The position numbers were made by a program, and so were the translations under genes. A stretch of 64,000 nucleotides of DNA, taken from contig NZ_VFPQ01000001.1 of assembly GCF_006716785.1 (NCBI RefSeq), forward strand, positions 1,860,001 through 1,924,000, written 5' to 3'. Positions 19,056-24,596 of the stretch are shown one piece after another (position 1 is the stretch's first letter; every line of letters starts with the position of its first letter). Below the pieces are notes generated by a model. The model did no database searches, had not been told where the DNA came from, and saw only the letters and a program-made list of their open reading frames with translations. The DNA is from Thermopolyspora flexuosa. GTDB taxonomy: Bacteria; Actinomycetota; Actinomycetes; Streptosporangiales; Streptosporangiaceae.

Positions 19056-20462
19056 TCAGAAGCCGGTGCTGCGCCAGCCGGGCTGGTACTGCTCGCGCAC
19101 GACCTTGGCGTACGGGGCCGGGCTGACGATGGCGCGGACCTCGATCTGCTCGTGCGGCTGGACGGTGAGCTTCTTGGTGCCGCCGTCCGGCTCGCCCCAG
19201 ACGACCTTGACCTCGGCGCCGATCGGCACGTCGGGGTCGACGGTGGCCAGCGACAGACCGCAGCGCTCGTTCGCGCTGTAGCCGGTGAACAGGGAGAGGC
19301 CGACGACCTTGCCGTTGGCGTCGATCACCTTGTCGTAGTTCGACGAGCCGTAGTTGGCGTTCGGCACGTCGAAGAACTGGTAGCCCGGGCCCTCGGGGTC
19401 GGCGAGGGAGGCGAGGATCTTGCCCAGGTCCTCGGCGTTCCAGGCGAGGGTGACCTTACGCCGGAACCGGTCCTTGTTCTCCGCCATCTCGCGGAGCGCG
19501 TCGGCGCCGACGAAGTCGTGGTCGAACTTGATGAAGTTGCCGTAGCCGAGCTCCCACGGGTTGAGGTAGTAGTCCTCGATGTTGTCGGAGACGAAGCTAC
19601 CGGCGAGGGCGTTGGTGGCCTCGTAGCCGTCGACCGGCAGCCACTCGCGGTACTCGCGCAGGCCCGGCGAGGTGTAGACGGCCGGGAGCGGCGACGGGAT
19701 CCAGCCGGACTCGAGGGTGTTGCTGGAGTAGGCGCGAGAACCACACGGCTCCAGGCCGAACTCGCGGCCGGCCTCGAGGATGGCCTCGCGGACCTTCTCG
19801 TAGGTCTCGTACGGGCCCCAGATCTCCAGACCGGGCATACCGGCCATGCCGTGCCGCAGGGTGCGGACCCGCTCGCCGGCGATGTTCATCCAGCTCATGC
19901 GGAAGAACTTGAGCTGCTCGAGCTTGCCGCCGTGCAGCTTCTCCAGGATCGCCCAGGCGTTCGGGCCCTGGATCTGGAAGCGCCACAGCTCACGCTTGAC
20001 GGCCTTGCCGTACGGGCGCATCGGGGAACGCTGGTCGAGCCGGATGTCGACGTTGTAGCCCTTGCTGCCCTTCCACAGCAGGTAGTTGGCGACGGGGGCG
20101 CGGCCGACGAAGGTGAACTCCTCCTCCGCCTCCCGGAACAGGATTCCGTCTCCGATGACGTATCCCTCGGGGGACACCGGGACGAACTGCTTGGCCATGT
20201 TGACCTCGAAGTTCGCCACGCTGTTGATACCGGTGTCGGAGATGAGCTTGAGCGCGTCCGGGCCGGAGATGAAGAGGTTGACCATGTGGTGGGACTGGTC
20301 GAACAGCACGGCCGTCTCGCGCCAGGCGATCACCTCACGGCGCCAGTTCGAGAACTCCGCGGGGACGACCGGGTAGATGTAGGCGCCCAGCTGGGAGTTG
20401 CGGAGCAGCTCTACGATGTTCCCGGTCTTGTCCAGCAGTTCCTGCAGATTCTTGGCAGTCAT
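19056..20462 (-). CDS. ligM: Tetrahydrofolate-dependent aryl O-demethylase (LigM-like)
   Basis: A 468-residue GcvT/DmdA-fold enzyme closely resembling LigM of Sphingobium SYK-6, which moves the methyl of vanillate or 3-O-methylgallate to tetrahydrofolate, giving protocatechuate or gallate and 5-methyl-THF. The match runs over the whole length (471 residues in LigM), with shared stretches [39 protein letters not shown] and [14 protein letters not shown]. Tyr28 and Tyr245 occupy the places of the LigM tyrosines Tyr29 and Tyr247. DesA (syringate) and DmdA (DMSP) are related, but length and motifs favour LigM. It lies 272 bp downstream of ligB on the same strand, so it may also have its own promoter. 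The folate genes metF, folD and purU beside it support the THF route. Confidence 0.88.
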
Positions 20463-20661
20463 CTCTTAACCCGTTCTTGTGTGGACGCCGTCGGCACTTC
20501 CGTCGGCTTTAAGCTATTCCTTCACGCTGTGCCGGGCACATGGCGAAGGGTTGGAGTGGTGTGGCCATGACCGGCAATGGCCGGTGCGTCATTTGACGTA
20601 ACCGCCTGGGCGGTTGTGAGGCGTGACGGGGCACACCTCGGTCGCCGGTCGGGTCGAGGGT

Positions 20662-20729
20662 GCGCCCCGGGACGGGCGCGCGGCACCGCGCGGGCGGCGA
20701 TGCGGCGCCGCGCGCCCGTCCCAGGGCGC
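20662..20729 (-). terminator. Long inverted repeat after ligB
   Basis: A 16-bp perfect stem (20669-20684 with 20707-20722) is extended by six more pairs (GCGCCC with GGGCGC) after one mismatch. It encloses a 22-nt loop and sits just beyond the ligB stop. It probably ends most transcripts of the metF-ligB operon. A smaller AACCGCC-TG-GGCGGTT dyad lies at 20600-20615, within the 272-bp gap before ligM. Confidence 0.55.
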
Positions 20730-20734
20730 GGGCG

Positions 20735-22832: not shown

Positions 22833-22845
22833 TGACTCTCCTGCC

Positions 22846-23715
22846 TCAGAACACGACGGTGGTGTTGCCGTCCCGGATCACCCGGTCGTCGCAGTGCCAG
22901 GTCACGGCGCGGGCGAGCACCAGCCGCTCCACGTCCGCGCCCTTGCGCTGCAGGTCCTCGACGGTGTCCCGGTGGGAGACGCGGATGACGTCCTGCTCGA
23001 TGATCGGGCCCTCGTCGAGGTCCTCGGTCACGTAGTGGGCGGTGGCGCCGACGAGCTTCACGCCGCGCTCCTTCGCCCGCTGGTACGGCCCGGCGCCCAT
23101 GAAGGCGGGCAGGAACGAGTGGTGGATGTTGATCACCGGGACGCCGACCTCGTCGAGGAACTCGCCGGACAGGATCTGCATGTACCGGGCGAGGATCACC
23201 AGGTCGACGTTGCCCTTGAGCAGGTTGAGCTGCTCCTTCTCGGCCTCGGTCTTGTTGTTCTTGTTGACCGGGATGTAGAAGTACGGGATGCCGAACTGCC
23301 GGGCGGCGTCCCCGAGGTCGGGGTGGTTCGACACCACCATCGGCACGGTCATCGCGATCTCGTCGCGCTGTACTCGCCACAGCAGGTCGAGCAGGCAGTG
23401 GTCGGCCTTCGACACGAAGATCGCGGCGCGCTTGCGGCGCTTCGCCTCGACCAGCCGGAACTCCAGGCCGAGCTCATGGGTGAGCTTCTGGTCGAGCGCG
23501 GCCTTGAGCTGGTCGAACCGGGCGCTGAGGCCCTCCAGGTGGAAGACCGTGCGCTGGAAGAAGCGGCCGCCGGAGGGGTCGGTGGAGTACTGGTCGAGCG
23601 AGACGATGTTCGCGCCCTGCTCGGTGAGCACTCCCGACACGCTGCTCACGATCCCCGGACGGTCGGCGCCCTGCACGATCAGACGGCCGTAGTCGGTGTT
23701 GTGGTGCTCCCTCAT
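22846..23715 (-). CDS. purU: Formyltetrahydrofolate deformylase
   Basis: A 289-residue enzyme hydrolysing 10-formyl-THF to formate and free THF. An N-terminal ACT domain (LIVQGADRPGIVSSVSGVLTEQGANIV) is followed by a formyltransferase fold with INIHHSFLPAFMGAGPYQRA and GATAHYVTEDLDEGPIIEQD; the catalytic Asn/His/Asp residues appear intact. The ATG at 23715 overlaps the metF stop (TAATG). In SYK-6 the C1 chain uses the formyl-THF synthetase LigH; here PurU takes the final step and regenerates THF irreversibly. Confidence 0.9.
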   Translation of the reverse strand: MREHHNTDYGRLIVQGADRPGIVSSVSGVLTEQGANIVSLDQYSTDPSGGRFFQRTVFHLEGLSARFDQLKAALDQKLTHELGLEFRLVEAKRRKRAAIFVSKADHCLLDLLWRVQRDEIAMTVPMVVSNHPDLGDAARQFGIPYFYIPVNKNNKTEAEKEQLNLLKGNVDLVILARYMQILSGEFLDEVGVPVINIHHSFLPAFMGAGPYQRAKERGVKLVGATAHYVTEDLDEGPIIEQDVIRVSHRDTVEDLQRKGADVERLVLARAVTWHCDDRVIRDGNTTVVF

Positions 23716-24596
23716 TACCGATCGTCCCTCCCGGCGACCGAGGCCAGCAGCTTCTGGCGCCATTTCTCGGTGCCCTCCAATTCGTTGAAGGTGAAGATGT
23801 GCAGCCCGCGGATGTTTCCACCGATCTTCGCGGATGCGGAGGCGAGCCGCTTCAACAGCTTGGTGGGGTTGTAGACGCCCGGCAGCAGGAACCTCCACAG
23901 CAGATTGCTCTGCTTCTGCAGGAACCGCGCCGACTGGCCGAGCCCGATGCCGGCCGAGATGCGGATCAGCTTCTGCCGGTTCACCGGTCCGGGCATGCCG
24001 ACGTAGATCGGCAGGTTGACGCCCTCGGAGGCGATGCGCTTGGCCCAGGTGGCGGTGGTGTTGGCGTCGAAGCAGATCTGGGTGAGGATGCGGTCCGCCA
24101 TCGGCGCCTTCTTCCGCAGCGCCTCGTCGATCGCGTTCTGCGGGATGAGCGCGTGGCCCTCCGGGTATCCGCCGATGCCGATGTTCTCGAACGGGTGGTT
24201 CAGCTCCTGCAGCACCCTGAGGAGCTGGTACGACTCGGTGAACTCACCCGCCGGGGTGGGGGCGTCACCGCCGATGCAGAACACCCGCCGGATTCCCGCC
24301 TCCTTCAGGCGCGCCACCACGTCCTCGACGTGCTTGGCGTCGACGAACTGCCGGGCGGGCAGGTGCGGGGCGACGGTGTATCCGTGATTGTGGAGACGTT
24401 CGGCGAGGTCGAGGGTGGTGTCGATTCCCTTGGCAACGGTGACGGTGACCGTCAGCGGGACGTCCTTCGGCACGTGGGTGAGCACGTCCTGCTCGGTCTT
24501 CTTGAACGGCATCACCTCGTAGCCGATGTTGCGCACCAGATCGGCGAGAGTGGAGCCTCGGCGCCCGGAGCCGGAAACCTCCTGCTGTATCGCCAT
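23715..24596 (-). CDS. metF: Methylenetetrahydrofolate reductase, O-demethylation type
   Basis: A 293-residue TIM-barrel flavoenzyme of the MetF family, expected to run in the oxidative direction on 5-methyl-THF made by LigM. Family features include IGYEVMPFK (catalytic Glu region), FCIGGDAPTPAGEF, IGIGGYPEGHA and QICFDANTT. It is divergent from biosynthetic MetF, like the copies found with ligM. ATG 24596 is chosen, with AGGGGAA upstream; a start 16 codons earlier lacks support. It is the first gene of the metF-purU-folD-ligA-ligB unit; no convincing promoter was seen upstream. Confidence 0.85.
   Translation of the reverse strand: MAIQQEVSGSGRRGSTLADLVRNIGYEVMPFKKTEQDVLTHVPKDVPLTVTVTVAKGIDTTLDLAERLHNHGYTVAPHLPARQFVDAKHVEDVVARLKEAGIRRVFCIGGDAPTPAGEFTESYQLLRVLQELNHPFENIGIGGYPEGHALIPQNAIDEALRKKAPMADRILTQICFDANTTATWAKRIASEGVNLPIYVGMPGPVNRQKLIRISAGIGLGQSARFLQKQSNLLWRFLLPGVYNPTKLLKRLASASAKIGGNIRGLHIFTFNELEGTEKWRQKLLASVAGRDDR

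Follow-up and report, generated by a model that had tools for sequence, protein, structure and literature searches.

A candidate demethylation and ring-opening cluster combining LigM, PurU and a distinct LigAB in the actinobacterium Thermopolyspora flexuosa

Background

How does an actinobacterium dispose of the methyl groups that it takes off lignin aromatics, and which ring does it then open? Both questions are raised by six adjacent genes, metF, purU, folD, ligA, ligB and ligM, in a 64-kb stretch of the Thermopolyspora flexuosa genome (hereafter the window; C1:1860001-1924000 of a 5.77 Mb host genome, in 3 contigs and 99.99% complete). Positions are those of the window, except where prefixed by C1 (host genome) or by a locus label (L). 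A preliminary description had read these genes as an operon in which methyl groups are passed to tetrahydrofolate (THF) and oxidised to formate, while LigAB opens protocatechuate. We consider it on balance probable that the cluster encodes the catabolism of methoxylated aromatics derived from lignin, in which LigM would supply a MetF-FolD-PurU chain ending in formate and LigAB would open gallate or 3-O-methylgallate in preference to protocatechuate.

LigM and the one-carbon chain

The six genes of the preliminary description are all present on the minus strand at 19056-24596 and are spaced as it had reported: metF-purU-folD-ligA-ligB make up a single tight run, with ligM 272 bp beyond it (Table 1), and the family matches of all six in profile searches are far beyond chance. 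One congeneric genome (L009/L115) carries all six genes in identical order, with protein identities of 95-99%. The ligB-ligM gaps of the two genomes are identical at 245 of 267 aligned bases (92%), with 9 gap positions.

By its sequence, LigM is a clear member of the vanillate/3-O-methylgallate O-demethylase family. It scores 862 bits against the LigM equivalog model NF047885 (cut-off 580) and stays under the cut-off of the DesA model (614 bits versus 800). Its nearest solved structures are 5tl4 (693 bits) and 5x1i, which we take to be those of LigM from Sphingobium SYK-6, a protein 65% identical to the window LigM over 463 aligned columns. If the site positions and numbering that we assume for the SYK-6 enzyme are right, catalytic Tyr247 and the pocket residues are the same in both proteins (11 of 11 positions). 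Arg122 is retained as well, and is absent from a paralogue at C1:96194, which falls under both cut-offs (DesA, 588.5 of 800 bits; LigM, 541 of 580 bits) and is named DesA-like here. The equivalog score and the retained site residues thus support the demethylase activity that had been predicted for LigM.

The operon MetF is divergent: it scores no more than 52 bits against PF02219, and its 64.7 bits against TIGR00676 stay under the cut-off (293.7). Its best match in the PDB is 7xg9 (96 bits), which we take to be the methylene-THF reductase (MTHFR) of SYK-6; the other 16 MTHFR sequences among the matches listed reach at most 29.6 bits. The housekeeping MetF of the host, at C1:3293318, shows the reverse pattern, matching 1v93 at 258 bits and 7xg9 at 24. 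To judge from these scores, the operon MetF is an MTHFR of the SYK-6 type, nearer to 7xg9 than to canonical MTHFR. According to a conference abstract, the SYK-6 enzyme oxidises 5-methyl-THF (PMC12585457).

The other two enzymes complete a plausible chain. PurU exceeds the cut-off of the equivalog model TIGR00655 (380 bits versus 286). Both FolD domains, PF02882 (192 bits) and PF00763 (134 bits), are over their Pfam cut-offs; among the matches listed, FolD reaches the cut-off of none of the NCBIfam FolD models, the best being 382 of 475 bits. A second FolD is encoded at C1:4324236. A search for the FTHFS domain (PF01268) gave no match in the host genome, while the identical search was positive in 4 of 14 control genomes. 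Given this negative result, PurU rather than LigH is the likely formate exit. Together with the MetF nearest to 7xg9 and the separate housekeeping MetF and FolD, this leaves the predicted conversion of methyl-THF to methylene-THF, formyl-THF and formate, with PurU replacing LigH, well supported by the gene complement.

The LigM/MetF/LigH module of SYK-6 is a close comparison, sharing the LigM sites considered above and the kind of MetF for which 7xg9 is the nearest solved structure. The window differs in that MetF shares its run with PurU and a dedicated FolD, with no FTHFS or LigH found in the genome, in that the run includes a LigAB of another clade, and in that the host has GcvT-domain matches. 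In SYK-6, as in the route proposed here, the methyl of aromatic ethers is passed to THF and then oxidised (PMC12585457).

The ring opened by LigAB

The window LigAB is more likely a gallate/3-O-methylgallate (syringyl) dioxygenase than the main protocatechuate enzyme of its host; we favour this assignment because of the genes that accompany its relatives, the clade of its LigB and the residue at position 103 of its alpha subunit. The enzyme belongs, like SYK-6 LigAB, to the two-subunit class III extradiol dioxygenases. Its LigA stays below the cut-off of the protocatechuate alpha-subunit model TIGR02792 (101.2 bits versus 108.6). Its LigB is over the cut-off of the class III beta-subunit subfamily model PRK13366 (383 bits versus 317) and below that of the DesB/GalA model PRK13367 (318.7 bits versus 412), and the enzyme has two chains and lacks the Glu377 of DesB.

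We compared 32 loci carrying ligB genes of the window type, 31 of them fetched through LigM and the remaining one being the window, so that all have ligM nearby; 13 short duplicate loci were left out. Neither ligC nor ligI was found at any of the 32, while a GalB-like gene is present at 14, ligK at 19, and one or the other at 20. By comparison, ligC accompanies four of nine LigB2-type rows. Six of the 32 loci span less than 20 kb, where a distant ligC could escape; the window was searched over its whole 64 kb. The gallate cleavage route enters at 4-oxalomesaconate (OMA), skipping ligC and ligI. GalB is the name that we presume for the PIG-L-type gene, whose protein has only deacetylase matches in NCBIfam, all below cut-off.

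In a tree of 44 LigB rows, the window type forms an actinobacterial clade of 32 rows (support 100/98), and SYK-6 LigB groups with four ligC-linked rows in a separate clade (100/100); the tree carries a long-branch warning for rows that include DesB, L091/L092 and L084. The alpha-subunit residue aligned to SYK-6 LigA Phe103 is aromatic (Phe or Tyr) at each of the four loci with ligC, whereas all 37 others have Met, Leu or Ile there, with Leu in the window. The 37 comprise the 32 window-type loci together with L091, L092, L148, L149 and L150; omitted from the count were L037 (a 28% relative without LigA) and L146 (DesB type), and the Ile of L091 and L092 falls in a poorly matching stretch. In Microbacterium sp. 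CH12i, a fused LigA-LigB frame beside ligM and ligC (L084:11485-12798) has Phe at this position, as read by eye. L148-L150 sit nearer the protocatechuate clade, yet all three have Met at 103 and two have a GalB-like neighbour. In the part of a mutagenesis study that was available, Phe103 of SYK-6 LigA is described as controlling selectivity at ring C5, with activity in the F103V, T, L and H forms and a higher turnover of gallate and 3-O-methylgallate in numerous mutants at this position (PMC10094722).

The host also has another candidate for the protocatechuate role. A ligJ-ligI-ligA-ligB-ligC run at C1:5.09 Mb includes a canonical LigAB, with both subunits over their cut-offs (LigA, 194 bits versus 108.6; LigB, 512 bits versus 317). 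We presume the identities of its LigJ, LigI and LigC: in NCBIfam the first has no family, and the other two have below-cut-off matches under other names. This operon, as its gene content suggests, can fill the protocatechuate role. Given the separate operon, clade, neighbours and residue at 103, the original assignment of the window LigAB to protocatechuate is not well supported; we have lowered that role and retain it within a rival reading.

That rival is a guaiacyl (vanillate) operon, in which LigM would yield protocatechuate for cleavage by the window LigAB, and the ligJ-I-A-B-C operon would contribute LigC, LigI and a second LigAB. Both the LigM family name and the SYK-6 precedent include vanillate, LigC- and LigI-like genes are present in the genome, and the window LigB matches SYK-6 LigB better than it matches DesB (334 versus 267 bits). 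We nevertheless regard it as unlikely, if still worth carrying, when a canonical LigAB is already encoded in the operon with ligC and ligI, the window LigA is under the TIGR02792 cut-off and non-aromatic at 103, its LigB lies in the other clade, and none of the 32 window-type ligB genes has ligC or ligI nearby.

Several observations weigh against the gallate/3-O-methylgallate assignment. The main objection is that the host already has a DesB-type gallate dioxygenase, a single chain at C1:117286 that scores 721.8 bits (cut-off 412) and contains the DesB Glu377; it brings the class III ring-openers of the host genome to at least three. A second gallate enzyme therefore looks redundant, and would be puzzling if the window LigAB did not act on 3-O-methylgallate. 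The partial text of a study of Novosphingobium aromaticivorans shows that such redundancy exists, as its LigAB2 prefers gallate in vitro; the same text names LigAB as the main opener of 3-O-methylgallate (PMC8091115). Since an ordinary LigAB opens that ring, a protocatechuate-type enzyme is not barred from it. LigAB2 is likened to the window enzyme by description rather than sequence, as a second LigAB paralogue in a degrader of lignin aromatics with a preference for gallate in vitro (PMC8091115, in part).

Residues and phylogeny add further reservations. The gallate-selecting Glu377 of DesB is absent from the window LigA, which has Val there; placement of this column is unsure and so of no help, as SYK-6 LigA has Ser at it in our alignment and Phe according to the available part of the DesB paper (PMC3962378). 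The window enzyme resembles SYK-6 DesB in the gallate ring proposed as its substrate, and differs from it in having two chains without Glu377. The window LigB retains the segment YHVPASNTA, close to YHIPASNTA in SYK-6. The 37-to-4 contrast at position 103 tracks a few clades, not 41 independent events, and we know of no assayed enzyme from the window LigB clade.

The gene neighbourhood is also less decisive in the host itself. The 64-kb window contains no GalB-like, LigK, LigC or LigI gene, and no gene in the host genome matched a GalB-like protein at above 25% identity, so that a host GalB-like gene was rejected as a candidate. The argument from neighbours consequently comes from other genomes. 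In addition, LigK also serves the protocatechuate route, and the LigM family name covers vanillate as well. With these reservations, the window LigAB still differs from its SYK-6 counterpart in TIGR02792 score, in Leu for Phe103, in LigB clade and in the missing ligC and ligI neighbours, and gallate/3-O-methylgallate remains the favoured substrate.

A single-chain DesB-type gallate dioxygenase lies at L146:10286-11578, about 20 kb from the DesA-like gene in its genome, with a pirin-like gene, by eye, coming after it.

Proposed pathway

We propose that LigM transfers the methyl group of 3-O-methylgallate, and probably of vanillate too, to THF, and that the specialised MetF would then oxidise 5-methyl-THF to methylene-THF, which FolD would convert to 10-formyl-THF. 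Irreversible hydrolysis of 10-formyl-THF by PurU would release formate and free THF for reuse by LigM; it would also pull the unfavourable MetF step forward, giving up the ATP that might be conserved if LigH were used. The demethylated ring would be opened by LigAB, and the ring-opened product completed by LigJ together with an OMA tautomerase (522 bits, cut-off 440) and a LigK (307 bits, cut-off 304.5), whose genes adjoin at C1:2.83 Mb. A search of the host genome for an intradiol dioxygenase domain gave no match, in keeping with the earlier view that this gene set departs from the 3,4-cleavage route usual in Actinobacteria.

A different use of the same enzymes would be to feed methylene- and formyl-THF mainly to biosynthesis, with PurU as an overflow valve, a role resembling that proposed for LigM and MTHFR of SYK-6 (PMC12585457). 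We consider this improbable for T. flexuosa. SYK-6 is described as having no glycine cleavage system (PMC12585457), whereas the host has GcvT matches at the domain level, one of them scoring 315 bits within a frame of 550 codons, and it has its own housekeeping MetF and FolD. Moreover, purU overlaps metF, which suggests that the two are produced jointly.

Table 1. Predicted features of the ligM-metF region, in window coordinates
Feature	Position	Strand	Evidence and remarks
metF-like gene for a divergent, SYK-6-type methylene-THF reductase	23715..24596	-	PF02219 52 bits (cut-off 24); predicted 5-methyl-THF oxidiser
purU, 10-formyl-THF deformylase with ACT and formyltransferase domains	22846..23715	-	TIGR00655 380 bits; 1 bp overlap with metF
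folD, methylene-THF dehydrogenase/cyclohydrolase	21957..22832	-	PF02882 192 bits, PF00763 134 bits; 13 bp after purU
ligA-like alpha subunit	21600..21944	-	PF07746 122 bits; 12 bp after folD; Leu at the SYK-6 Phe103 position in the 1b4u_A alignment
ligB-like beta subunit, class III extradiol dioxygenase	20735..21607	-	PF02900 227 bits; PRK13366 383 bits; 8 bp overlap with ligA
ligB-ligM gap, 272 bp	20463..20734	-	Candidate site of a separate ligM promoter
ligM, predicted THF-dependent vanillate/3-O-methylgallate O-demethylase	19056..20462	-	NF047885 862 bits; 5tl4 693 bits
LysR-type regulator downstream of ligM	17876..18844	-	PF00126/PF03466

Recurrence and distribution

To get a comparative perspective, we examined the loci of the best 80 of 405 confirmed LigM relatives, 61 of which have both flanks of about 10 kb. 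At identity thresholds of at least 25% for MetF, 45% for PurU and 35% for FolD, MetF was found near ligM at 42 loci, PurU at 30, both at 29 and FolD at 20; a DesA-like gene is present at 34. The joint occurrence of MetF and PurU adds to the support for the methyl-to-formate chain. The order metF-purU-folD-ligA-ligB recurs at L011, L014, L017, L039 and L047, and L010 brings LigM, MetF, PurU, LigAB, a GalB-like gene and LigK together within 12 kb. Among the 80 loci, ligM follows this run on the same strand, as in the window, only at L009. Twenty loci combine MetF, PurU and a window-type LigB, and at 18 of them ligM and ligB are on opposite strands. This orientation and the long 272 bp gap are the reasons for thinking that ligM may be transcribed separately.

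All of the best 80 LigM relatives are from Actinomycetota by title, and they are 69-96% identical to the window LigM. LigM above its cut-off was found in 4 of 60 sampled genomes among relatives of the host, and in 11 of 396 genomes sampled across the phylum; a LigB relative at 1e-40 or better was found in 4 of the 396 (the host is included in each count). The LigM and LigB traits are uncommon but scattered in the phylum. In a quick FastTree analysis, from which L009 was left out and in which SYK-6 is the sole sphingomonad, the window LigM falls within an 80-row clade (support 0.97) with SYK-6 outside; the split next to SYK-6 is weak (0.42).

The preliminary description had called the combination unusual and possibly gained by transfer, and had suggested a phylogeny of LigM and LigAB against sphingomonads. 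Rarity and transfer had both been overstated, considering the 405 LigM relatives, the phylum of the best 80 and a published LigM in a Micromonosporaceae metagenome-assembled genome (MAG; PMC9296663, in part). Recent acquisition of the cluster from sphingomonads, which the patchiness of LigM (4 of 60 and 11 of 396) might suggest, is not supported and is very improbable, given that the best 80 relatives are Actinomycetota at 69-96% identity, as against 65% to SYK-6, and that the window LigM lies in a clade without SYK-6. Exchange within Actinomycetota may still have taken place.

LigM-type genes of Actinobacteria have thus already been published, the MAG in question, from hog fuel, having a profile-called LigM; the available part of that study names metF and ligH for another MAG, one with a DesA-like gene, and mentions neither C1 genes nor LigAB next to the ligM concerned (PMC9296663). 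Many other bacteria hold gene sets similar to that of SYK-6 (PMC12585457). A link between LigM and PurU, or between vanillate and purU, was not named in the open-licence literature searched; purU is linked to sarcosine use in the part available of one published study.

Regulation and neighbouring genes

A scan of the ligB-ligM gap for sigma-70-like promoters gave no match (0.4 expected), and a terminator scan gave one terminator-like match against 2.2 expected. Promoter words common to the regions upstream of ligM, metF and the desA-like gene were rejected because their best mismatch sum, 3, was equalled or beaten in 11 of 30 shuffles. The LysR-type gene was likewise rejected as operon regulator: no relative (at least 40% identity over half its length) was found at the 80 ligM loci, and it is unlikely to be a conserved member of the unit. 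A two-component pair recurs near ligM, its response regulator (at least 55% identity) being present at 24 of the 80 loci, and in the host genome this pair adjoins the DesA-like gene. The response regulator and sensor kinase may be regulators of the pathway.

At L113:10600-12950 a response regulator and sensor kinase lie next to the DesA-like gene, with relatives that recur near ligM in other Actinobacteria.

Elsewhere in the window, a CO/xanthine dehydrogenase-type cluster (FAD subunit, XdhC/CoxI-like, MoxR-type ATPase by eye, CoxG and CoxE-VWA) lies on the plus strand at 9827-17868, just downstream of ligM and the LysR gene and oriented toward both. The window also contains a GmrSD-type restriction endonuclease gene (3221-5785, minus strand; PF03235, PF07510), two flavin amine oxidoreductases (26550-28493 and 45322-46794; PF01593), phytoene-desaturase-like by eye, and sugar-use genes at 38987-55691, among them GH39, alpha-amylase and alpha-1,3-glucanase amid ABC sugar transporters (by eye).

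Conclusions

A broader interpretation, which we put forward tentatively and hold somewhat short of probable, is that these loci represent an actinobacterial syringyl-lignin system, spread across many genera and with parts distinct from the sphingomonad one. Its two-subunit dioxygenases would be a new clade opened at alpha-103 (Met or Leu) for gallate or 3-O-methylgallate. They would be fixed in a single run together with a MetF-FolD-PurU chain lacking LigH, where irreversible deformylation would drive methyl oxidation and recycle THF for LigM. Lignin use is held back by the removal of methoxyl groups, of which a syringyl unit bears two. If the interpretation is true, the cluster would be a compact module for engineering, offering oxygenase-free demethylation, THF recycling without LigH and a ring-opener of its own. 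The alpha-103 contrast amounts to a residue-level prediction of substrate choice in LigAB enzymes, for which an annotation as 'LigAB' need not equal protocatechuate.

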